A DNA stretch of 64,000 nucleotides from positions 2,356,001 to 2,420,000 of the forward strand of contig NZ_CP085036.1 in assembly GCF_020535405.1 (NCBI RefSeq). The letters run 5' to 3'. The position numbers and the translations under genes were made by a program. Source of the stretch: Antiquaquibacter oligotrophicus (GTDB lineage: Bacteria > Actinomycetota > Actinomycetes > Actinomycetales > Microbacteriaceae). This document shows positions 32,020 to 47,129 of this stretch, one piece after another; the first letter of the stretch is position 1, and every line of letters begins with the position of its first letter. The notes under the pieces are model-generated. The model was not told where the DNA came from and made no database searches. It saw only the letters and a program-made list of their open reading frames with translations.

Positions 32020-32778
32020 GTGAAGATTGCGCGGTTCAGCCACGAGGGCGACATCAGGTTCGGCATCATCGACGACGACGAGGTGGTGGTGCTGGCCAAC
32101 GACCCCATGTTCGCCGGATACGAGACCCTCGACGAGCGTCTGCCCCTGTCCGAGGTGAAGCTCATCGCGCCCGTCATCCCGCGATCGAAGGTGATCGCGT
32201 TCGGTCGTAACTACCGGGACCACGCGACCGAGCTCGGCAACGAGGTGCCGGCCGAGCCGCTCATGTTTTTGAAGCCCAACACGTCGGTGATCGGCCCGGG
32301 TGACACCATCGTGCTGCCGCCGCAGAGCGAGAACGTCGCCTTCGAGGGCGAACTCGCCGTGGTGATCGGCGCCATCGCCAAAAACGTCTCGGCCGAAAAG
32401 GCGGAGAGCGTGATCTTCGGCTTCACCATCGCCAATGACGTCACCGCTCGTGACCTCCAGACCCGCGACGGTCAGTGGTCGCGCGCGAAGGGCTTCGACA
32501 CGTTCTGCCCGATCGGCCCGGTGATCGAGACCGAGTTCGCGGTCATCCGTCAGCACATCGTGACACGTGTCAACGGTGACGTGAAGCAGGACGGCCCGGT
32601 CTCCGACATGCTCCACGGTGTCGCGGAGTTGATCGAGTACGCGTCATCCGTCTTCACGCTGCTGCCCGGGGATCTACTCCTGACCGGAACGCCCGCCGGT
32701 GTCGGACCGCTCGTGAGCGGGGACACGGTGGATGTCACGATCGAGGGTATCGGAACGCTCTCGAACCCGGTGCGCTAG
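32020..32778 (+). CDS. Fumarylacetoacetate hydrolase family protein
   Basis: A 252-residue FAH-fold enzyme; relatives are acylpyruvases or oxaloacetate decarboxylases. FGRNYRDHATELG opens the catalytic domain, FEGELAVVIG gives the metal-binding Glu pair, and ANDVTARDLQTRDGQW the Asp. GTG at 32020 is the start. From memory, a close relative sits next to gltX in mycobacteria, so this gene marks the left border of the lipoprotein island. Its last 29 bp recur exactly at 37066-37094. It overlaps the convergent lipoprotein gene by four bases. Confidence 0.88.
   Translation: MKIARFSHEGDIRFGIIDDDEVVVLANDPMFAGYETLDERLPLSEVKLIAPVIPRSKVIAFGRNYRDHATELGNEVPAEPLMFLKPNTSVIGPGDTIVLPPQSENVAFEGELAVVIGAIAKNVSAEKAESVIFGFTIANDVTARDLQTRDGQWSRAKGFDTFCPIGPVIETEFAVIRQHIVTRVNGDVKQDGPVSDMLHGVAELIEYASSVFTLLPGDLLLTGTPAGVGPLVSGDTVDVTIEGIGTLSNPVR
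32750..32778. repeat. 29-bp direct repeat, left copy (within FAH 3' end)
   Basis: The block starts TCGGAACGCTCTCGAACCC and ends GGTGCGCTAG, encoding the last residues and stop of the FAH-family protein. An identical 29-bp copy is found at 37066-37094 in the same orientation. Confidence 0.9.
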
Positions 32779-33629
32779 CCGCTCGTGCTGGAGTGAGGCT
32801 CGAGACGGAGCAACTCCCGGCCTCTCGAATCGAAGAGGTGGAGGATCGCGCCATCGGCTCCCACCACTCTCACGGCGGTCACTAAAGAGCCGACCTGGAG
32901 GCCAGGGCAGCCGATCGAGGCGACCATGCCCGGGGTGTTGGTCACCACGTACCCATGATCTAGCTCCGCGTAGCGTCCGCTCGAGCCACACGCGCCTGGA
33001 GTATCGACGAACGACTTCCAGTCGCCGTCGCGAAACTCGAGGAAGGTGTCGTCATCGCCGAAGATCGGCGCTCCCGTGTCCTCCGCGAGCGGCATGGCTT
33101 CGGACACGGCCCACGTGATGTGCCAGGTTCCCGTGAGCGAGGCAGGTGACAGGTTCGCGTCGAGGGGCCGGATGGCCTCCATCGTCGGCTCCGCAGGAAC
33201 GCCTCGAGTGAGGCGGCCGTTCAGCGCGCCTGTCGTAGTGCCGCCGGAATCCGTGAACAACCACCCCGAGTCATGAGCTTCGAGCCGCTCTGTGGTCGTG
33301 AGCCACGGCACATCGAGTTGGCCGTCGCGCACGCATCCGGGGTCGATCAGTCCAGGGCTCCCGAGCCAGGCATCACCGAGAGTGATCCAGGTTCCCGACA
33401 CCTCGCCGCACGCGGCGCCGTACGTGAATCCGTCCTCCAGCATCGTCAGCTCGCCGACGTGCCCGCTGGGCTCGCTGAGGGTCCAGGTCCCGATGAGATC
33501 GGCCGCGACGCTTTCGGGCGCGGGCGGATGCGGAGTGGGCGTGGCCGTCGGGGCGGGGGCGGGCGCCGAGCACCCGGCGAGAAGAGTGATCGCAGCGGCG
33601 AGGCACGAGAGCACGCGGGGAGTGGACAT
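32775..33629 (-). CDS. Lipoprotein of the local paralogous family (two-module), no. 2
   Basis: A 284-residue predicted lipoprotein: signal peptide with lipobox LLAGC, then a Pro/Thr-rich linker (residues 20-40). Two modules follow, each of the form L-x-GTW-x-L...CG..SG.W.......C....W, the second starting near SLTGTWHITW. It ends near LFDSRGRELLRLE. It is one of five related genes at 32.8-39.6 kb. The modules recall META/HslJ-like domains but I cannot prove that. The ATG overlaps the stop of the three-module paralog (TGATG), so it is the last gene of the sigma-factor operon. Confidence 0.8.
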   Translation of the reverse strand: MSTPRVLSCLAAAITLLAGCSAPAPAPTATPTPHPPAPESVAADLIGTWTLSEPSGHVGELTMLEDGFTYGAACGEVSGTWITLGDAWLGSPGLIDPGCVRDGQLDVPWLTTTERLEAHDSGWLFTDSGGTTTGALNGRLTRGVPAEPTMEAIRPLDANLSPASLTGTWHITWAVSEAMPLAEDTGAPIFGDDDTFLEFRDGDWKSFVDTPGACGSSGRYAELDHGYVVTNTPGMVASIGCPGLQVGSLVTAVRVVGADGAILHLFDSRGRELLRLEPHSSTSG

Positions 33630-34774
33630 CAGTTCTCCGAATGGTTCGAGACGGGTACGAGTCGATCGAGTTCGGCGCCTGTATTGTCCAGCATCACGAG
33701 TGTCTCACCGTCGAATCCTGCGAGGCGGACCCGCCAGTCCCACTCTTCGATCGGACGCTCACCGCAGTACATCAAGGTCATGACGCTCTGGACGACCACC
33801 AGTACTCGCCCATCCTGTAGAGGCGCCCATCTCCCGAGCTGATCGTTACAGTCGTCCGTTCCGCGGAGAGTGCCGTCAGGATCGAAATGGACGCTCGACG
33901 CTCGCTCGCTCGTGAGCGAAGTCCACTCGCCGGCAATTGATCCGGGACTGAGCGACGCGGGAAGCGCCACTGGGTCAGCTAGCTCGGCTGCGACCTCCTC
34001 AGCAGAGAAAGCTGGCCAGCCTCCGGATGCCGAGTCCGGATCCCGTTCAAGCCGCGCTAGGACTGATCCGTCCTCGTCCCTGAGGCTCAGCGTTCCGTCG
34101 TCGAGATCGGCCTCCCGTGCGCCGACGAGCCAAGGGATCTCGTCGTCCGCGAGGCGGCAACCTCCGCTGCCCCACACCATCGCGAGGAAGACGCCGTCGA
34201 GGGAGCCCCAGTCGCCCATGAGTTCACCGCATGGCATCGTGAGGATGTACATGCGAGGAGCGAATTCGAGGGTGGACCCGGCGATATTTTCCGGGTCGGT
34301 GACCGTCCAGGCGCCGACGAGGTCGCGAGAGTGCCAGTCGACCCCGGATTCGGGGACAGGCGAGAGTCGCCCGACTTCCTCCGCCTCGGCATCGAGAAGC
34401 ACGACCACTCCTTTCTCGATGCCAGCGAGACTCGTCCGATCGAGCCACGACACGAGCACCGATCCTGGACAGTGTGCCGGGATGGGTGCGGTGCGCCGCG
34501 AGATCGAGACGCGGCCATCCTCGTGAGTCTGCCAGGTGCCGCGGGCCACGCAACGAGCCTCCTGTGTCGCCTCGCCGAACCCCTCGACCCGCCAGTTGTT
34601 TCCCTCGATCACCAGGGTCGCTGTGCCCGGCGACGTCCCCGCTGCCGCCCACCGCCCGTCCACCGGGGCGGGAACGAGCCCTTCCGGCAGTCGCGGAACT
34701 GAACTCCCGAGCGGCACGCAGCCCGAGAGAGCGGCCACGAGTAGGGTGCCGACGGCGACGTGCCTAGCCCACAT
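33629..34774 (-). CDS. Lipoprotein of the local paralogous family (three-module)
   Basis: A 381-residue predicted lipoprotein with lipobox ALSGC and three repeats of the family module: near residues 40-130, 148-240 and 270-370. Each has conserved Trp and a Cys pair, and the last two end VLARLERD and LVMLDNTGAELDRLV. It is co-transcribed with the sigma factor and membrane partner upstream (11-base overlap). Longer than its paralogs because of the extra N-terminal module. Function unknown; a surface sensor or target of the sigma system is an inference. Confidence 0.8.
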   Translation of the reverse strand: MWARHVAVGTLLVAALSGCVPLGSSVPRLPEGLVPAPVDGRWAAAGTSPGTATLVIEGNNWRVEGFGEATQEARCVARGTWQTHEDGRVSISRRTAPIPAHCPGSVLVSWLDRTSLAGIEKGVVVLLDAEAEEVGRLSPVPESGVDWHSRDLVGAWTVTDPENIAGSTLEFAPRMYILTMPCGELMGDWGSLDGVFLAMVWGSGGCRLADDEIPWLVGAREADLDDGTLSLRDEDGSVLARLERDPDSASGGWPAFSAEEVAAELADPVALPASLSPGSIAGEWTSLTSERASSVHFDPDGTLRGTDDCNDQLGRWAPLQDGRVLVVVQSVMTLMYCGERPIEEWDWRVRLAGFDGETLVMLDNTGAELDRLVPVSNHSEN

Positions 34775-35648
34775 AGAACTCCCCGATCACGGTTGTGCCG
34801 TCCGGCGCGTAGAGCGGGATAACCCTGTCGGGATCGCGTGACGCGGGGGTTGCGTGCATGTCGAGTGGCCCCTGTGTGAGGTCGTCCGTGGAGCGCGACT
34901 GCCCGGACACACCGGGGAGGAGAGCATCGCCGGACGGCCCTCCCGAGTTGAACTCGACAATGCCGTCGTCGTACGGGGGAACGAGGTCGCGAACAGCCGC
35001 GCTTTCGACGTATCCCAGGGTTCCGTCGACTCCGACAGCCGCCAGCAGGTCGGGCGTCCCGAGACGAGGCGAGGCGACTCCGTAGGTCTGACCCTGGGCG
35101 TTGACCCCCCACTCGGTCTCTGTCTTCACGAGGTACTGCAGCGAGACCACGACCTCGGCTCCCGGTTCGGGCGACGCGAAGAGGGAAGAATTGTCATCGG
35201 AGAGGGCCAGGTCGCTCCACGTCTCGGTGCGGTCGTCTCCCGTGCACGTCGATGTCAACGCGACAGTGGTGGGGGAGAAGCCAACCTTCGTCACCCCGGA
35301 AGTGAGACACGTGATTCGCACCCGCACGTCTGTCGCACCGACAGGGGGCTGAAGAGGGACAAGCGCGGGCCCGCTCACTCGCGTGCTTCCTGCGTCTTCG
35401 ACGATCGTGACGACGGATGCCCCGGGCCAAACACCATCGGGAAGCGCGGGCCCGCTCGCCACCGTCACAGGTTCCTCAGAGAGGGTCGACGCGACGGCGG
35501 CCGTGAGACCGACACCGACGAGCGCGCCCGCGAGCACGGCAGCCGCCAGCAGGCTGGCGTGGGGGCTCCGGTGCCCCGATTCGACGTTCGTCGCCAGTCC
35601 CGCCCGAATGGCGGCGGATCGCTCGGGGTCGAACTGTGGCGTGGTCAT
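34764..35648 (-). CDS. One-pass membrane protein, putative anti-sigma partner
   Basis: A 294-residue protein with about 30 cytoplasmic residues, one transmembrane helix (residues 33-55, LLAAAVLAGALVGVGLTAAVAS) and an extracytoplasmic domain of about 240 residues. It overlaps the ECF sigma gene by four bases (ATGA), the usual place of an anti-sigma factor. However, the cytoplasmic part has no H-x3-C-x2-C zinc anti-sigma motif and is shorter than a normal anti-sigma domain. Assignment as a sigma partner rests on position and topology only. Confidence 0.65.
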   Translation of the reverse strand: MTTPQFDPERSAAIRAGLATNVESGHRSPHASLLAAAVLAGALVGVGLTAAVASTLSEEPVTVASGPALPDGVWPGASVVTIVEDAGSTRVSGPALVPLQPPVGATDVRVRITCLTSGVTKVGFSPTTVALTSTCTGDDRTETWSDLALSDDNSSLFASPEPGAEVVVSLQYLVKTETEWGVNAQGQTYGVASPRLGTPDLLAAVGVDGTLGYVESAAVRDLVPPYDDGIVEFNSGGPSGDALLPGVSGQSRSTDDLTQGPLDMHATPASRDPDRVIPLYAPDGTTVIGEFYVG

Positions 35649-36241
35649 GATGGGTGCCTTTCACTCTCGAAGAGCACGGTGGGGAGGGTCGGATGGATGC
35701 CGCGGGCTCGCCGTCGAGCACGCGAGAGTCTCTGGCGCGCGGCATCCGTGGTGATGCCGAGCACGTCGGCGGTGTGGGCGAGGCTGAGCTCCTCCACGAG
35801 TACGAGCGCGATGATCTCGGCGTCAGCAGGGGGAAGAGCATCCAGGATCGCGGCAAGGTGCTGGGAACGATCGTGATGCTCGCTGCGCTCCTGCGCGATC
35901 GTCTCGGCCGAGGGCTCGGTGCCCGGCGGTGGGAGACGCTCGAGAAAGGCGCGGTGTCGCCGCTGGTATCGCGCGAGGTTGCGCACGACGTTGTGGGTCG
36001 TGGTCAGCAGCCAGGGGAGCACAGAGCCGTCGACCAGTCGCACGGAGCGCCGCTTGCGCCACAACTCGAGAAAGGCGGCGGCGACGGCATCCTCGGCGTC
36101 CGTCGGTGAGGCCGTTCGTGCGAGTGCGCTCCGGAATAGTCGATCACGATGGGTGTCAAAGAGTCGAGCGAAAGCGTCACCGTCGCCGGAGAGGGCACGC
36201 CGCCACCATAGGGCTTCTGAGGAGGGCGTTTCGCGGCTCAC
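35645..36241 (-). CDS. ECF-family RNA polymerase sigma factor
   Basis: A 198-residue sigma-70 family factor. Region 2 runs about residues 22-95 (LFDTHRDRLFRSALARTAS, DAVAAAFLELWRKR), and region 4 about 125-180 (LPPADAEIIALVLVEELSLAHTADVLGITTDAARQRLSRARR). It is the first gene of a four-gene operon with the membrane partner and two lipoproteins, a layout that suggests surface-signal-controlled expression. No target promoter can be defined from this window alone. Confidence 0.92.
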   Translation of the reverse strand: MSRETPSSEALWWRRALSGDGDAFARLFDTHRDRLFRSALARTASPTDAEDAVAAAFLELWRKRRSVRLVDGSVLPWLLTTTHNVVRNLARYQRRHRAFLERLPPPGTEPSAETIAQERSEHHDRSQHLAAILDALPPADAEIIALVLVEELSLAHTADVLGITTDAARQRLSRARRRARGIHPTLPTVLFESERHPS

Positions 36242-36351
36242 AATGGGGACTGTCCGCTCAGGCCACAGTGTGACAGCACCCGCTCAGGGTAGCGATTGCT
36301 CATTCACCCATGATGCTGTCCTCGGACGCTATCCCCAGCAGTCGTGGCTTG

Positions 36352-36378
36352 AAACGTATGGCACCCTGCCATACGTTT
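36352..36378. promoter_or_regulatory. VapB operator palindrome
   Basis: A perfect palindrome of 12-bp arms, AAACGTATGGCA and TGCCATACGTTT, with a 3-base centre, ends seven bases before the vapB start. Toxin-antitoxin operons are normally autorepressed through such sites. The 110 bases between it and the divergent sigma gene start show nothing else clear. Confidence 0.75.
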
Positions 36379-36384
36379 AGTGTC

Positions 36385-36612
36385 ATGGGAATGGTAAAGA
36401 CGACCCTCTATCTCCCGGAGTCGCTCAAGCGCGACATCGAGCGAATCGCGCGTGAACGCGGAGTGAGCGAGGCGGACGTGATTCGGGAGTCTCTGGCCGT
36501 GTCGGTCAGTGAGCGCCGTCCGCGACCCCGCGCTGGGGTCGTGGCGATCACGGGTCAGCCGCCCATCGACTGGAACTCGCGCGACCATCTCCAAGGCTTC
36601 GGGGACCCGTGA
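36385..36612 (+). CDS. vapB: Ribbon-helix-helix antitoxin (VapB-like)
   Basis: A 75-residue CopG/RHH antitoxin: MVKTTLYLPESLKRDIERIARERGVSEADVIRESL is the DNA-binding ribbon and two helices. The C-terminal tail (ITGQPPIDWNSRDHLQGFG) is the toxin-binding part. ATG at 36385 or 36391 could be the start; neither has a strong ribosome site, and the transcript may be nearly leaderless. It overlaps vapC by four bases (GTGA). Confidence 0.88.
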   Translation: MGMVKTTLYLPESLKRDIERIARERGVSEADVIRESLAVSVSERRPRPRAGVVAITGQPPIDWNSRDHLQGFGDP

Positions 36613-37019
36613 TCCTCGACACGAGCGTGCTCCTCTCGTATCTGGATCGCAACGAACCCGCTCACGACAGGGCGACCGCTCTCATCGACACCTATCGTGG
36701 ATCTCTTGTCGTCTCGCCCCTGGTCCTCGCCGAGGTTGACTACCTTCTTTTGACGCGCGGCGGACTCGACGCGGAGATCGCTGGGATGCGCGAACTTGCC
36801 AGTGGCGCGTGGGAGATTGCGTCGTTCACTAGCGAGGATCTCTTGGATGCGCTCGGAGTTGTGGAGCGCTATCCGGCGCTCGCCGTGGGAGCCACTGACG
36901 CTTCCCTCGTGGTGCTCGCCCACCGATACGGCACTCGCACGATCGCAACACTCGACCGGCGACACTTTGAGGTGTTGCGTTCCCTCGACGGAAAGCCGTT
37001 CGACGTGGTGCCGGGCTAG
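36609..37019 (+). CDS. vapC: PIN-domain ribonuclease toxin (VapC-like)
   Basis: A 136-residue PIN-domain toxin. MILDTSVLLSYLD carries the first catalytic Asp, SPLVLAEVDYLL the Glu, GATDASLVVLAHR the second Asp pair, and TIATLDRRHF the last Asp. All acidic residues expected for a Mg-dependent RNase are present. GTG start coupled to vapB. Its 3' end lies 47 bases before the duplicated FAH-end sequence. Confidence 0.9.
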   Translation: MILDTSVLLSYLDRNEPAHDRATALIDTYRGSLVVSPLVLAEVDYLLLTRGGLDAEIAGMRELASGAWEIASFTSEDLLDALGVVERYPALAVGATDASLVVLAHRYGTRTIATLDRRHFEVLRSLDGKPFDVVPG

Positions 37020-37065
37020 GGGCGAATCGCCCCGCCCGCACCGAACGCCGGTGGCGCGAAGGGCT

Positions 37066-37094
37066 TCGGAACGCTCTCGAACCCGGTGCGCTAG
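37066..37094. repeat. 29-bp direct repeat, right copy (FAH 3'-end remnant)
   Basis: This is a perfect copy of 32750-32778, the end of the FAH-family gene including its stop codon, here without the rest of that gene. Like the left copy it lies just downstream of the 3' end of a convergent family lipoprotein gene. It suggests the locus was duplicated together with the FAH tail. Confidence 0.9.
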
Positions 37095-37108
37095 GCGCGG
37101 GGCATCGC

Positions 37109-37966
37109 TCAGCCCGCCTTTACGAACCGCCCTAGCTCATCCCCGTCGGCGTCAAAGAGCACGAGCAATTGGTTCTGAAACCCAAACGCTCGAGCGGAAT
37201 GAAACCACGGTGCGACAGTTGCCAGGCCACAGTCGGGGAGTGTGGTCGAGAGCTGCGGCGGGCTCGTCAGAACTCGGCCACGCACGCTGATGTTCCATTC
37301 ACCGCTGACGGCCCCGCACTCGGATTCGACGGTCCACATCGAGTCGTCAATCGTCGCCCCGGCGAGAATCCCTTGGTCGAGCGGGATCCAGCGTCCACCC
37401 GCATAGCCAAGGACGAAACTCGCAGGGAGTCCTCCCGGAGCGATGGAAAGCATTGCAGGCGAAAGTTCCGCGGGAACACTAAGCTCATTCGACCGCGACT
37501 GGGTATCACTGGGCGCGAGAGAAACCACGAGAGAGGCCTCGTTATCGAGCAGGCTCCATCCATCACCGTCGGTTTCGACGTGAGTGGCTGACTCCAGCCA
37601 CGGCGGAGTTGGCTGGCCCGATGCATCACAGCCCGAACCGTCCTGGATCTCGAGAGTTGTGCTGATAAGCCCGTCGAGCGTGGCCCAATTGCCGAATATT
37701 GTGCAATCGGCCATAGAAATTACAAGTCCGTCAACGTCGAAGTTCGCCGTGGCAATTTCGTCGCCGTCCTGGAGCACCGACCAGCTCCCCAGCAGACCCG
37801 CGACGTTTGGGTCGGTATTGATGGGCAGCGCAGCCTGCGTGGGACTCGGAGATGTTGTTTCGTCGGTCGTGTCACCTTGTGTGGAGCTGCACGCCACTGA
37901 GCTAGACATGATTAGCAGAGCTAATATCAATCCGATGATGCGAGAACGCCTTAGCGAAAGTTGCAC
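37109..37966 (-). CDS. Lipoprotein of the local paralogous family, no. 3
   Basis: A 285-residue predicted lipoprotein with signal SRIIGLILALLIMSSSVAC, a Thr/Ser linker, and two family modules ending LLVLFDADGDELGRFVKAG. The start is taken as GTG 37966 (VQLSLRRSRIIG); the long upstream in-frame extension overlaps the next paralog and is not credible. Its DNA is visibly richer in A/T than its neighbours around 37.7-37.95 kb, which may mean a different origin or relaxed selection. It is the last of three co-directional paralogs. Confidence 0.75.
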   Translation of the reverse strand: MQLSLRRSRIIGLILALLIMSSSVACSSTQGDTTDETTSPSPTQAALPINTDPNVAGLLGSWSVLQDGDEIATANFDVDGLVISMADCTIFGNWATLDGLISTTLEIQDGSGCDASGQPTPPWLESATHVETDGDGWSLLDNEASLVVSLAPSDTQSRSNELSVPAELSPAMLSIAPGGLPASFVLGYAGGRWIPLDQGILAGATIDDSMWTVESECGAVSGEWNISVRGRVLTSPPQLSTTLPDCGLATVAPWFHSARAFGFQNQLLVLFDADGDELGRFVKAG

Positions 37967-37985
37967 GTCTTCACTATGGCATCTC

Positions 37986-38783
37986 CTAGCCGCGGGCGAA
38001 GCGCACCAGTTCATCCCCGGACGCGTCGAACAGCACCAGTTCGTCACCGTCGAATCCCGCGGTACGCATCTGCGAGACGAGCCCATTGACCTCGTCCGCC
38101 TCACAGCCGAGACTCGCGCCGAAACCCAGAGTTATGGCGAGGACAAACCCGTCGCCGAGTTCGGCGTATCGACCGCCAGCGCAGAGGCCGCTCATACGTG
38201 TGGAGGCCACCCACGAGCCATCGCGAAACACGACCGTCACGGCACGTCGGAGCGTCTTGCCGCCAATCTCGGACGTGACCCATTCGCCCTCGATGCTGCT
38301 TGCCGTGAGATCGGGTGGCAGGGGTCGCGCGGTGTACGCCCCGTCAGCATTGGTTTGCGCCGCTGAGGCATCGCTGAGGCTCACAAGCGTGGTGCCTTGT
38401 GCATTGGTGAGGTCCCACCCTGTGTTCGTGGGATTGATGCCGATCACGGAGTCGATCCACGTGAGTATCGATCGGTTGTCGTGAACACAATCGGGATCGC
38501 TGCGCTCGGCGATGGCCAACCACGTCGAGTCGGCCGTGACCCAGCTTCCCGACGTCACACCACAGGCAAGCTCCGCTGTGAAGGCCCGCGGTGTCGAGAA
38601 CGTCAGGGTTCCCGTTTCGCCGGTCACGGCATCCGTCAGGGTCCATGTGCCGAGCAATTGTGTGTCCACTGAGGCGGGGGCGGTGCGTGAGGGAGCAGGG
38701 TGCGGACGGGGTGGCACCGCGGTACATGCCGCGAGTGGCATAACTGCCACGAGCGTGACCGCGAGGCTTCGGGCCAGCGTCAT
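37986..38783 (-). CDS. Lipoprotein of the local paralogous family, no. 4
   Basis: A 265-residue predicted lipoprotein: MTLARSLAVTLVAVMPLAAC signal, Pro-rich linker, module one (LLGTWTLTD to WIDSV) and module two (SIEGEWVTSE to LVLFDASGDELVRFARG) with the GRYAELGDGFVLA segment also seen in paralog no. 2. The ATG overlaps the stop of paralog no. 5 (ATGA). Function unknown. Confidence 0.8.
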   Translation of the reverse strand: MTLARSLAVTLVAVMPLAACTAVPPRPHPAPSRTAPASVDTQLLGTWTLTDAVTGETGTLTFSTPRAFTAELACGVTSGSWVTADSTWLAIAERSDPDCVHDNRSILTWIDSVIGINPTNTGWDLTNAQGTTLVSLSDASAAQTNADGAYTARPLPPDLTASSIEGEWVTSEIGGKTLRRAVTVVFRDGSWVASTRMSGLCAGGRYAELGDGFVLAITLGFGASLGCEADEVNGLVSQMRTAGFDGDELVLFDASGDELVRFARG

Positions 38784-39580
38784 GTGGCCGCGATGAGGCG
38801 CCCTAGTTCGACGCCTCTGGAGTCGAACAACACCAGCTGTTCGTCGTCGAAGCCAGCGGTTCGGGCGGCACCGACCCACTCGGCAACGGGGACGTTTTCG
38901 CATCCGATCATCGTCGATATCGATGACGGGGTGGCCAAGAGGTAACCGCCACCCAAATCGACCCATCTGCCGCCGTTTCCGTTGCACCCGTCGGAGGACT
39001 GCCAGACTCCCGTCCCAAATTCCACGTAGGAGTCGCCCGGCGTCTCGACGATCGGCGCCCAGCGTCCTTCGACATGTCCGACGGTGAAGCCTTGCGGCAG
39101 CGGCTGAATGGGCTCGTCTTGCGGTGGCTCGCTTTCCAACGTGCCACCAGTGAGCGAACCGGTGACAGCGCCGGCAGCATCCGTCAGAGTCCACCCATCT
39201 TCGCTCGCGACGATTCGCTCGGTCTTCTCGACCCACTCGAGTGAGGGCTGCGGGTCGATGTTATCGATGCAGCCCATGTCACCTCCCCAACTCATCGCGA
39301 GGAACGCGTCGCCCAACGATGCCCACTCCCCGTTGATGCCGCCGCACTCGTATGCCCCCTCCCACATCCCAGAGTCCCGCAGGGTGATGGTCGCGCTCAT
39401 GCCGTCGCTGGGATCGACCAGCGTCCATGTGCCAACGATCTCGGCCGCGGTGTTCACGGGAGCGGCGGCTCGGGGTTCGAAGGTGGGAGTGGGGGTTGGC
39501 GTTGACAGTGGAACCGCGGAGGTGCACGCGGCAAGACCGGCAGTCAGGAGCGCTACGGGGGCGAGCATCCGGATTCGCAT
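38780..39580 (-). CDS. Lipoprotein of the local paralogous family, no. 5
   Basis: A 266-residue predicted lipoprotein with lipobox GLAAC, a Thr-Pro linker (STPTPTPTFEP) and two modules, the first EIVGTWTLVDPSDG and the second HVEGRWAPIVETPG to LVLFDSRGVELGRLIAAT. CGGINGEW and GCENVPVAEW hold the conserved Cys and Trp. First gene of the three-lipoprotein operon. No promoter motif is obvious upstream. Confidence 0.8.
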   Translation of the reverse strand: MRIRMLAPVALLTAGLAACTSAVPLSTPTPTPTFEPRAAAPVNTAAEIVGTWTLVDPSDGMSATITLRDSGMWEGAYECGGINGEWASLGDAFLAMSWGGDMGCIDNIDPQPSLEWVEKTERIVASEDGWTLTDAAGAVTGSLTGGTLESEPPQDEPIQPLPQGFTVGHVEGRWAPIVETPGDSYVEFGTGVWQSSDGCNGNGGRWVDLGGGYLLATPSSISTMIGCENVPVAEWVGAARTAGFDDEQLVLFDSRGVELGRLIAAT

Positions 39581-39610: not shown

Positions 39611-40768
39611 TCACACCGCCAGCGCTCCGTCCCCAGCGAACGCAAGCGCGGCGAAGCGCTCGCCGATGAGGCGTTGGGTGTCCGCGTCGGGGTGGAGAGC
39701 ATCGGGGAGCGGATGTTCCGTGGCATCCGTCTGCCCGTAGAGTTCCAGCCCGTCAAGGTAGTGCAGATTGGCATCCGCCCGCGCGGCGACGATGCGCTCC
39801 AGCTCGCGTCGGATCACCGTGAGGGTGAGTTTGCCCGCGGCGACCTCTGCAGGGTCACCGGTCGCCCGAAACTGCATACGACCCGCCATAAACGCCTCCG
39901 GATCGAAGGCGCCGGGGCCGGGGGTGTTTTCGTGGATTTCGCAGTAGATGGGCGAGACCACAAGCAGGGGAGTGGTGCGATGCCCCTCGCGGATGGTGTC
40001 GAGGAAGCCGTGCACGGCCGGCCCGAAAGCGCGAAGGCGCATGAGGTCGGCGTTCACGATGTTGATGCCGAGCTTGAGGCTGATGACATCGGCGGGGGTG
40101 TCGCGGATGGTGCGTGCCGTGAACGGGTCGAGCAGAGCGCTGCCGCCGAACCCGAGACTGACGAGGTTCACGTCGGCGATGCGGCTCGCGACGGCGGGCC
40201 ACGTGCCAAGTGGATGTGTCGCATTCGAGCCGTGACTGATCGAGCTGCCGTGGTGCACCCACGTGCGGCGAGTGTCTACCCGCGGGGTGACGGGGGCGTC
40301 CGTTCGGAGTGCCACGAGCTCGATGGTCTCGTTGTGGGGGAGCCAGAGTTCCACGGTTTTGGTGCGCGGCGGCAGGTCGGCGAAACGGGAAACGTGCGCG
40401 GCGCCGTGCGTGGTGGTCGGCGTTCCGGTAGCCGGATCGAGCACGATCGCGGTGCCGGCGGTCGTGGCATCCTCCGCCGTGGGGGTGCCGTCGACGACCA
40501 GTTGCACGATGCCGTCGGGGCGAAGTGTGAGCCCTGCATAGTTGACGGTCGTGCGTATGAGTTCGAGCTCGATGGTCGTCGCTGCGGTGTCGAAGACGAG
40601 GCGCACGCCCGAGGGTTGCGATTCGGCCTTCGCGAGCTGTGGGTCCGTGTTCTGGGCACGCGCCCACGCCGGGAGGCGGTGGGGCAGAAGCCCGCGCTGG
40701 GTCGGCTCGAGTTCGGCCGCGCCGTGAACGAGATCGTCGGTTAGCGGGATGGTGATGAGGTCAGTCAT
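39611..40768 (-). CDS. SGNH/GDSL-family hydrolase
   Basis: A 385-residue esterase-like protein. A beta-rich N-terminal domain (residues 1-165) precedes the SGNH domain: HHGSSISHG holds the nucleophile Ser, LVSLGFGGSALLD the Gly, LKLGINIVNAD the Asn, and LPDALHPD the Asp-x-x-His pair. No signal peptide, so it acts in the cytoplasm. The start ATG at 40768 overlaps the TetR gene by eight bases, so the regulator probably controls it. Acetyl or acyl ester of a sugar is a plausible substrate. Confidence 0.85.
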   Translation of the reverse strand: MTDLITIPLTDDLVHGAAELEPTQRGLLPHRLPAWARAQNTDPQLAKAESQPSGVRLVFDTAATTIELELIRTTVNYAGLTLRPDGIVQLVVDGTPTAEDATTAGTAIVLDPATGTPTTTHGAAHVSRFADLPPRTKTVELWLPHNETIELVALRTDAPVTPRVDTRRTWVHHGSSISHGSNATHPLGTWPAVASRIADVNLVSLGFGGSALLDPFTARTIRDTPADVISLKLGINIVNADLMRLRAFGPAVHGFLDTIREGHRTTPLLVVSPIYCEIHENTPGPGAFDPEAFMAGRMQFRATGDPAEVAAGKLTLTVIRRELERIVAARADANLHYLDGLELYGQTDATEHPLPDALHPDADTQRLIGERFAALAFAGDGALAV

Positions 40769-41333
40769 GGTCGGTCCAGGTGGTGATGAGGGTGTCGAGC
40801 GAACGGAGGATTTCGTGCCAACTCGTGTCGGCGTCCGGTGAGCTGTGGTCGAACGATCCGCCACGCTCGAGAGTGATGAAGCCGCGGATGGTGCTGCCGA
40901 TGAGTCGAATCGCGTGCACACGCGCGGCGGGGTCGAGGTCGTATCCGTCGAGGATCGCCTCGAGTAGGCGCGCGTGACGCGGGCCAGCGCTCGCGGCGGC
41001 GGTCTCTGCGTCGAGCGGCACCAGCGTGGCGGCGAAGCGACCCGGATGCTCGCGCGCGTAGCCGCGGTAGGCATCCGCGAGCCCCATCAGAGCATCGAAC
41101 CGCGACTTGCCCACGGTGGCATCGGATGCCCGCACCGCGAGTTCGTCGAGGGCGAGGAGGCTGATGCGCACACTCAGGTCGGCGCTGCTCGCCACGTGCG
41201 AGTACAGGCTTGGCGTGCGCACGCCAAGCCGCCGCGCGACCTCGGCGACGGTGACGTGCTCGAAGCCGATCTCGTCGGCGAGTTCCGCACCGGTCGCCGT
41301 AACGCGCCCCAGTGTGATTCCTGCTCGTGGCAT
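40761..41333 (-). CDS. TetR-family transcriptional regulator
   Basis: A 190-residue regulator with an N-terminal HTH (GFEHVTVAEVARRLGVRTPSLYSHV) and a WHG-type C-terminal ligand domain. Start is ATG 41333. It is transcribed with the SGNH hydrolase and divergent from gltX, with palindromic sites in the 72-base gap. It likely represses its own operon in the absence of a ligand. Confidence 0.9.
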   Translation of the reverse strand: MPRAGITLGRVTATGAELADEIGFEHVTVAEVARRLGVRTPSLYSHVASSADLSVRISLLALDELAVRASDATVGKSRFDALMGLADAYRGYAREHPGRFAATLVPLDAETAAASAGPRHARLLEAILDGYDLDPAARVHAIRLIGSTIRGFITLERGGSFDHSSPDADTSWHEILRSLDTLITTWTDHD

Positions 41334-41336
41334 CGT

Positions 41337-41379
41337 TTTCCTAACTAAGTGAGGCTTAAACCTAAAGCATTTAGGAAAC
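41337..41379. promoter_or_regulatory. TetR operator region
   Basis: Two nested dyads: CCTAAAGCATTTAGG at 41361-41375, and TTTCCTAA (41337-41344) facing TTAGGAAA (41372-41379). They occupy the gap between the TetR gene and gltX. The 15-bp inner palindrome is the better operator candidate. Confidence 0.55.
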
Positions 41380-41405
41380 GTGCGCAAGCTCTAGACTTAC
41401 CCCCG

Positions 41406-46316: not shown

Positions 46317-47129
46317 TCAGTCTGTCTTTTCGAGTAGAAAGCGCAAGATCTGTGGGCGAAGTGCCGCGGGCGACACCTGGTGCGTCTGTCCGTCGAGCAC
46401 GGCGTGTTCCGCCCCGGGGATGCTCGCCGCGACCTTTTCCTGCGCGGCGAGCATCTCGGGTGCTGCTTTGCTCCCGCACAGCACGAGCGTCGGCACGGAA
46501 ACATCCGCGAGTTCCGCAGGCGGCGTGAACTCCGACCCCATGATGGCCGCGTCGTACCGCAGCGTCGGAGCGACACCGAGGAGCGTTCGCCAGGCCTTAC
46601 GCGACATGAAGCGCATCATCAGGGGGACAAATCGCGGCGCCCCGATCATGTCGACCATGAAGTACGAGATGGCCTTGTCGTTGGCGCCCGCGTCGATGAG
46701 CCGATCGAGGTCGGCGTGGTACTGCTTGCGGGTGCCGTCCTTACCAGTGCGCAGGCCAACCCAGGGCGCCTCGTATCCGATGAGACGAGTCGTCGGAACT
46801 CCGTGCGCCGCAGCGCGATAGGAGAGTGCCGCACCAGAGGACTGACCGAGGACGGAAGCCTCGCCGCCGACCGCGGCGATAACGGCACGGAGATCCTCGA
46901 ACTCCCGCTCGGGCGCGTATGGGAGGGTGTTCTCACTCTCACCGCGACCTCGACGGTCGTAGATGACGACCGTAAAGCGGTCGCGCAACTCCTTCGCGAC
47001 GTCGCGCGACGGTCCGAACTCACGGAAACAGAATGCCCCGTCAACGAGCACTAGCACGGGGCCACTGCCCGAGCGTTCGAACGCGATACGTGTGCCGTCG
47101 GCGGAGGTGGCGTATTCGGTCTCACTCAC
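46317..47129 (-). CDS. Alpha/beta hydrolase
   Basis: A 270-residue alpha/beta hydrolase. VYDRRGRGES marks the strand 4 loop, LGQSSGAALSYRAA the nucleophile Ser, VLCGSKAAPEM the acid region, and VLDGQTHQV the His. The ATG overlaps the stop of the AHSA1 gene by four bases, so the order ArsR, AHSA1, hydrolase, DUF1905 forms one operon. Substrate unknown. Confidence 0.85.
   Translation of the reverse strand: MSETEYATSADGTRIAFERSGSGPVLVLVDGAFCFREFGPSRDVAKELRDRFTVVIYDRRGRGESENTLPYAPEREFEDLRAVIAAVGGEASVLGQSSGAALSYRAAAHGVPTTRLIGYEAPWVGLRTGKDGTRKQYHADLDRLIDAGANDKAISYFMVDMIGAPRFVPLMMRFMSRKAWRTLLGVAPTLRYDAAIMGSEFTPPAELADVSVPTLVLCGSKAAPEMLAAQEKVAASIPGAEHAVLDGQTHQVSPAALRPQILRFLLEKTD

Follow-up and report, generated by a model that had tools for sequence, protein, structure and literature searches.

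The window analysed here is a stretch of 64,000 nucleotides (nt) from Antiquaquibacter oligotrophicus (GCF_020535405.1, contig NZ_CP085036.1, positions 2,356,001-2,420,000 of the forward strand), which contains at 32775-39580 a locus encoding five paralogous lipoproteins (LP1-LP5), an extracytoplasmic function (ECF) sigma factor (SIG) and its one-pass membrane partner (ASF). SIG and ASF probably form a self-activating ECF switch, a reading that we hold with moderate confidence, in which ASF would act through a minimal, class II-like anti-sigma peptide, with LP2 and LP1 as the output cargo. The gene overlaps, the peptide shared by related partners and the promoter motif shared by related sigma genes, on which this reading builds, were observed directly, and the fold of the lipoprotein module is predicted from a structural model.

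SIG carries both regions characteristic of ECF (group IV) sigma70 factors, matching Sigma70_r2 at 6.4e-11 (42.3 bits, cut-off 24) and Sigma70_r4_2 at 4.2e-9 (36.4 bits, cut-off 25.7). The genes for SIG, ASF, LP2 and LP1 overlap head to tail by 4 nt (SIG/ASF), 11 nt (ASF/LP2) and 1 nt (LP2/LP1), and because of these overlaps they are most simply taken as one operon, from which we infer that the four are cotranscribed. An earlier reading of the sequence alone (the sequence-only reading) had placed two of the lipoproteins in such an operon and had described the cytoplasmic part of the membrane protein as too short for a normal anti-sigma domain and free of a zinc motif; both descriptions held. 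By hydropathy, ASF has one hydrophobic segment (residues 34-52), preceded by about 33 residues, and since its only cysteines (114 and 135) lie past this segment, the HxxxCxxC motif is absent. Class I anti-sigma domains average 101 +/- 33 residues (PMC7406223), the zinc anti-sigma domain (ZASD) needs HxxxCxxC (PMC4598750), and the class II protein CnrY embraces its sigma factor CnrH with two helices (PMC7406223, PMC4598750). ASF thus shows neither a domain of about 100 residues nor the zinc motif, and no Pfam anti-sigma family was matched at E 0.1 by any of the 11 members of ASF alignment A5. As in class II, its cytoplasmic part is short and zinc-free, and the model predicts one helix, versus two in CnrY, at residues 8-24 with a predicted local distance difference test (pLDDT) score of about 70, spanning most of the conserved peptide described below.

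In order to compare SIG and ASF with related pairs, relatives of SIG were collected from 199 genomes of the family (30 loci and further stretches) and from earlier stretches, and the 64 distinct loci compared are a part of those listed, mostly the strongest. A partner was called where a frame of at least 100 amino acids (aa) opened with ATG or GTG between -30 and +40 nt relative to the sigma stop codon and contained a hydrophobic segment starting at residue 12-75. By this rule a one-pass partner follows the sigma gene in 62 of the 64 loci, all but L214 and L250; one of the 62 is an artefact, the partner called in L189 being in fact a broken sigma gene. The membrane segment of these partners is preceded by 25-60 residues (median 34), and neither a zinc motif (Hx3Cx2C) nor a cytoplasmic cysteine was found in any of the 62. 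These short tails share a 13-residue motif, roughly F/M/L-D-P-x-R/F-S/A-x-A-I/V/L-R-x-x-L, which scores 1136 bits among 56 non-redundant peptides (including one artefact) compared with at most 419 in 12 shuffled sets; these shuffles, like those used for the promoter below, keep residue or base make-up only and ignore relatedness. The outer parts of the same partners are unlike in length and sequence, and a peptide shared by proteins with unlike outer domains is easiest explained by contact with a shared cytoplasmic protein, for which the adjacent sigma factor is the obvious candidate. In an order-wide set of 297 genomes, with 28 loci examined, the partner was present in 22 and a promoter score of at least 9.5 in 18, and when five same-family loci were removed the counts were 17/23 and 14/23. 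The window's genome itself holds a second sigma-partner pair (L239 2800-4316, contig position 1899344), whose partner starts MTTQRDDALRAELV and behind which no same-strand gene lies within 120 nt. Two very short partners, of 183 and 180 aa (L218, L234), retain the cytoplasmic peptide together with a C-terminal VYKSDGxTVVGxF element.

The promoter motif G(G/T)AAC-N13-14-CGGACA scores at least 9.5 upstream of 48 of 63 sigma genes, compared with 0.95% of 315 mononucleotide shuffles. In 35 of these 48 the inferred start codon follows the motif after 0-9 nt, so the transcript would be nearly leaderless. Across the window's genome, a pattern widened to GKMAC yielded seven matches versus two in a backwards control, and two of the seven lie exactly 9 nt before a sigma gene of the SIG group, namely SIG itself and the sigma gene of L239, which has a full GGAAC-N14-CGGACA match. 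None of the other five ends within 10 nt of the start of a frame of at least 80 aa, the nearest being 20 nt (L263, inside a longer same-strand frame) and 74 nt (L267) away; as five is somewhat above the backwards control of two, further regulon members are neither claimed nor excluded. The L267 match, GGAAC-N13-CGGACA at 46387-46410 in the window, stands before a plausible 146-aa gene and could be a further sigma target or chance. The sequence-only reading had looked to a promoter motif common to the regions upstream of 36241 (SIG) and 39580 (LP5). The motif proved common to related sigma genes, with a weaker variant at SIG, and is absent at LP5, where the nearest CGGACA (39679-39684) has no -35 element at the right spacing; in the region from 30 to 43 kb no such promoter was found except at SIG.

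Under the proposed mechanism, ASF would hold SIG as its anti-sigma partner through the short cytoplasmic peptide until an envelope signal, read by the outer domain of ASF, frees it. Once free, SIG would use the promoter 9 nt ahead of its GTG start to transcribe its own operon, with SIG, ASF, LP2 and LP1 all rising together. The output would be LP2 and LP1, lipid-anchored strings of lipocalin-like, META-like barrels located outside the membrane, where they may shield envelope proteins or bind a small hydrophobic molecule. LP5, LP4 and LP3 would be relatives in a neighbouring TetR-GDSL unit that lacks the SIG promoter.

The paralogy of the five lipoproteins, already proposed from the sequence, was confirmed, as all ten pairs match each other by BLASTP at E 1e-41 to 2e-8, a likeness beyond chance. 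Reading of cysteine pairs and motifs gives two modules in LP1, LP3, LP4 and LP5 and three in LP2. A lipobox is present in four of the five (LP1 LAGC, LP2 LSGC, LP4 LAAC, LP5 LAAC), and LP3 has only S-V-A-C. Against the META profile PF03724, LP2 scores 23.3 bits (E 6.5e-5), under the gathering cut-off of 24, and LP4 12.6 bits, also below it, with no match reported for LP1, LP3 or LP5; at E 0.01 the profile is matched by nine of the 15 non-window relatives in alignment A4 and missed by LP1, LP3, LP4 and LP5. The LP5 model has two barrel-like, lipocalin-like domains, and the module is accordingly predicted to be a lipocalin-like barrel and is likely related to META/HslJ, a family without a settled function. 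In the lipoprotein tree, which was built without G021, LP1, LP4 and the last lipoprotein of the same-genus genome G158 (LPc) form one clade (support 100/97). Because long branches lead to LP2, LP3 and each half of the four-module protein of G158, only this clade and the LP5 clade are relied on. No match as close as the LP5 clade (P0008-P0013) was found among 299 relative genomes.

Whether these lipoproteins belong to the switch in general can be judged from where the two families occur. SIG adjoins ASF in all 21 loci examined, comprising 19 of the 36 places outside the window's own (mostly the strongest), one further place and L116, where the likeness to ASF is confined to its front end. A related lipoprotein (LP match at E 1e-3) was found in none of the stretches fetched around these 21 pairs. 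Conversely, SIG-ASF was found in none of 22 lipoprotein stretches, taken mostly from the strongest places and including three of 10 kb or less. Among 398 genomes of the family searched at E 1e-8, ASF occurs in 34, LP in 69 and both in six, versus 5.9 expected by chance. On the loci and genomes examined, a conserved sigma-partner-lipoprotein system is rejected, and the order of genes that had been expected to recur in relatives did not; the combination looks local to this locus, and the SIG-ASF pair by itself is the stronger finding. Of the two outcomes that the sequence-only reading had named as telling against it, one came about, in that the sigma gene occurs elsewhere without these lipoproteins, and the other did not, in that the module lies near META/HslJ, whose function is unsettled. 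A partial exception is G093, in which roughly 4 kb and other genes lie between a META-like protein and another sigma gene of the group. In addition, an ASF relative (P0004, 45% identity) and an LP5 relative (P0013, 49%) are each found on a single contig of 174,503 bases; as this is probably one and the same contig, the two families may also be linked elsewhere, in uncultured relatives.

The gene after the partner was checked in 42 entries besides the window, two of which derive from a broken sigma gene and one of which has no partner, and the resulting count is rough, many third-place frames resembling non-genes. By reading, four entries have a third-place lipoprotein: L195 and L053 (near-identical, 160 aa), L248 and L258. 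The scripted lipobox rule had flagged L258, L248 and L050, of which L050 was set aside as an unlikely gene, and L195 and L053 were recognised by eye. The L258 lipoprotein matches Beta-lactamase2 at 1.4e-38, and no Pfam family was matched at E 0.01 by those of L195 or L248. In L258 (G192:C1:349000-356000), the last 4 nt of the partner gene are shared with the beta-lactamase-family lipoprotein gene, which may for that reason be under ECF control.

The locus layout is given in Table 1. On the minus strand the order is TetR, GDSL esterase, LP5, LP4, LP3, SIG, ASF, LP2 and LP1, followed by the end of the FAH-family gene. LP5-LP4-LP3 form a separate unit after TetR and GDSL, with a gap of 30 nt between GDSL and LP5, and the gap of 867 nt between LP3 and SIG is occupied by a plus-strand VapBC pair (36379-37019), so that LP3-LP5 belong to a unit other than that of SIG, a correction to the sequence-only reading. 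The VapBC pair, which the sequence-only reading had not mentioned, is borne out by a ribbon-helix-helix (RHH) antitoxin gene that overlaps a PIN-domain toxin gene. The inferred start of VapB is immediately preceded, on the side of the SIG promoter, by a palindrome (36352-36378) with perfect 12-nt arms (AAACGTATGGCA-GGG-TGCCATACGTTT), likely an antitoxin operator.

Table 1. Features of the SIG-ASF-lipoprotein locus and its neighbours (positions in the window).
Feature	Position	Strand	Basis or remark
Proposed autoregulatory ECF promoter of SIG, GTCAC-N13-CGGACA	36251..36274	-	ends 9 nt before GTG start
SIG, ECF sigma factor (regions 2 and 4)	35645..36241	-	Pfam profile matches; GTG start
ASF, one-pass membrane partner of SIG, 294 aa, model outer domain beta-rich	34764..35648	-	hydropathy, model, overlap with SIG
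ASF residues 6-18, FDPERSAAIRAGL, conserved cytoplasmic peptide, proposed sigma-binding helix	35595..35633	-	motif search and model
ASF single hydrophobic segment, residues 34-52	35493..35549	-	hydropathy
LP2, lipoprotein with three META-like modules, in SIG operon	33629..34774	-	BLASTP, motifs, PF03724 near cut-off
LP1, two-module lipoprotein, last gene of SIG operon	32775..33629	-	BLASTP, motifs, tree
LP3, two-module lipoprotein, GTG start, outside SIG operon	37109..37966	-	BLASTP, motifs
LP4, two-module lipoprotein, outside SIG operon	37986..38783	-	BLASTP, motifs, tree
LP5, two-module lipoprotein, first of GDSL-linked group	38780..39580	-	BLASTP, model with two barrel-like domains
VapB-like RHH antitoxin between LP3 and SIG (start codon inferred)	36379..36612	+	RHH_1 2.6e-5
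VapC-like PIN-domain toxin	36609..37019	+	PIN 1.9e-16
FAH gene relic downstream of LP3	37054..37094	+	15 bp identical to FAH middle, running into 29 bp identical to FAH 3' end
Intact FAH-family gene, ends at LP1; relic source	32020..32778	+	sequence match; counterpart of the relic's 29 bp at 32750-32778
GDSL esterase upstream of LP5	39611..40774	-	Lipase_GDSL_3 4.6e-8; gene order shared with G158
TetR-type regulator upstream of GDSL	40761..41387	-	TetR_C_33 3.7e-22

Of 20 same-genus loci around FAH, 19 lack lipoprotein matches in the interval from FAH to gltX. The remaining one, in G158, has the order FAH (85% identical), lipoprotein genes, GDSL, TetR and gltX, with no match to SIG or ASF, and by reading its lipoproteins are one four-module protein (about 522 aa, L096 10081-11583) and one two-module protein. 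Of the 27 genomes of the genus, four (the window's own, G158, G170 and G173) gave strong LP matches, and ASF was found in the window's own and, as one weak match, in G172. Two of the 19 loci without lipoproteins, L112 (11877-12095) and L115 (3738-4153), likewise have a VapC-like or VapBC-like match between FAH and gltX, with no SIG there, and the FAH-gltX gap may therefore be an insertion hot spot. The FAH relic and the G158 locus, with lipoproteins and no SIG, point to rearrangement, and the relic can be read as evidence of past duplication or recombination. The simplest story would be that two lipoprotein-FAH units, one of them carrying SIG-ASF, were joined by recombination and one FAH copy decayed. 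Gain in the window's genome and loss in G158 would both fit the history of the locus.

Several points weigh against the self-activating switch. Peptide inhibition of SIG, the signal and the barrel ligands are inferred steps, and ASF-SIG binding is putative. The window's own promoter copy, GTCAC-N13-CGGACA, scores 8.7, below the counting threshold of 9.5; a score of 9 is reached somewhere in 250 nt by 11% of shuffles, and the genome-wide search used a pattern relaxed so as to take in this copy. Between residues 24 and 65 the ASF model is poor, and neither it nor the LP5 model has a PDB match by Foldseek at E <= 0.001, other fold matches to ASF being too weak to use. The peptide could have been kept through common descent of the partner front end for another reason, and its comparison covers partners of related sigma genes. 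Finally, a third-place lipoprotein is absent from the other 38 of the 42 entries, so lipoproteins are not needed for the switch. It also seems quite improbable, in our judgement, that ASF is not an anti-sigma factor at all but a membrane target or co-activator, with SIG controlled mainly through transcription. Such ECF factors are known (PMC8999054), and the cytoplasmic part of ASF falls under the 50-residue limit used for class I candidates in PMC7406223; against this stands the cytoplasmic peptide common to partners with unlike outer domains.

Two further explanations concern LP2 and LP1. They might be sensors, ligand-bound barrels outside the membrane telling ASF to release SIG, as in CnrX-CnrY or RseB-RseA. 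We regard this as unlikely, since a partner is present in 62 of 64 related sigma loci, yet these lipoproteins lie near none of the 21 SIG-ASF loci examined, and the few loci with unrelated third-place lipoproteins are a better fit to exchangeable cargo. The lipoproteins might also be chance neighbours, SIG-ASF having landed beside an existing array so that LP2 and LP1 lie downstream without a functional link. The G158 order without SIG-ASF, the FAH relic downstream of LP3 and the lack of a genome-level association between the ASF and LP families all favour this explanation, to which we give a low probability: whatever their origin, LP2 and LP1 would come under SIG through the three overlaps (4, 11 and 1 nt) together with an autoregulated promoter, and P0004 and P0013, probably on the same contig, suggest that the families may be linked elsewhere.

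A broader and more tentative proposal, which we consider possible but rather short of probable, is an order-wide class of one-helix anti-sigma factors. In these, a FDPxRSxAIRxxL peptide of about 13 residues would suffice to hold the sigma factor, the outer domain and third gene would be swapped, and the operon would be self-activating and near-leaderless from a CGGACA promoter; the cargo in the window would be a tandem pair of lipocalin-like lipoproteins related to the local array. Should the anti-sigma element consist of this peptide alone, it would be smaller even than two-helix CnrY, the smallest anti-sigma class in the literature covered, and this would explain sigma partners missed by profile searches, since class I candidates below 50 residues were dropped in PMC7406223. 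No description of the peptide or promoter was found in the literature searched, which covered the classification of ECF factors and their surveys in actinobacteria, anti-sigma factors that are short or of class II, the promoter, and Microbacteriaceae with related genera; the main ECF re-classification lies outside this scope, so that the SIG group may already carry an ECF number. The shared promoter offers a direct handle on regulons across a large actinobacterial group, and the interchange of outer domains and third genes, such as barrel lipoproteins in the window and a beta-lactamase-family lipoprotein in one relative, offers natural experiments on what each of these switches senses and what it protects against. 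As the short tail and promoter recur in related bacteria, the switch is directly testable.

Among known systems, the META/HslJ family (PF03724) resembles LP5 and LP2 in a D-x-CN...GRW stretch and a second cysteine, and in the lipocalin-like barrel of the LP5 model; the window's proteins differ in their two or three tandem modules and in profile scores under threshold. The L258 lipoprotein, encoded after a SIG-ASF pair with a 4-nt overlap, recalls sigmaP-RsiP in beta-lactam resistance of Bacillus thuringiensis, although this is another phylum and the likeness is one of theme. Class I anti-sigma factors (RseA, RsiW) and ZASD proteins are, like ASF, membrane partners encoded beside an ECF sigma factor, but ASF has only about 33 residues before its segment and no HxxxCxxC. 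The closest known anti-sigma factor is CnrY, set beside ASF from its descriptions in PMC7406223 and PMC4598750: both have a short, zinc-free cytoplasmic part in a membrane protein encoded beside an ECF sigma gene, but CnrY places two helices around CnrH, whereas the model of ASF predicts one.

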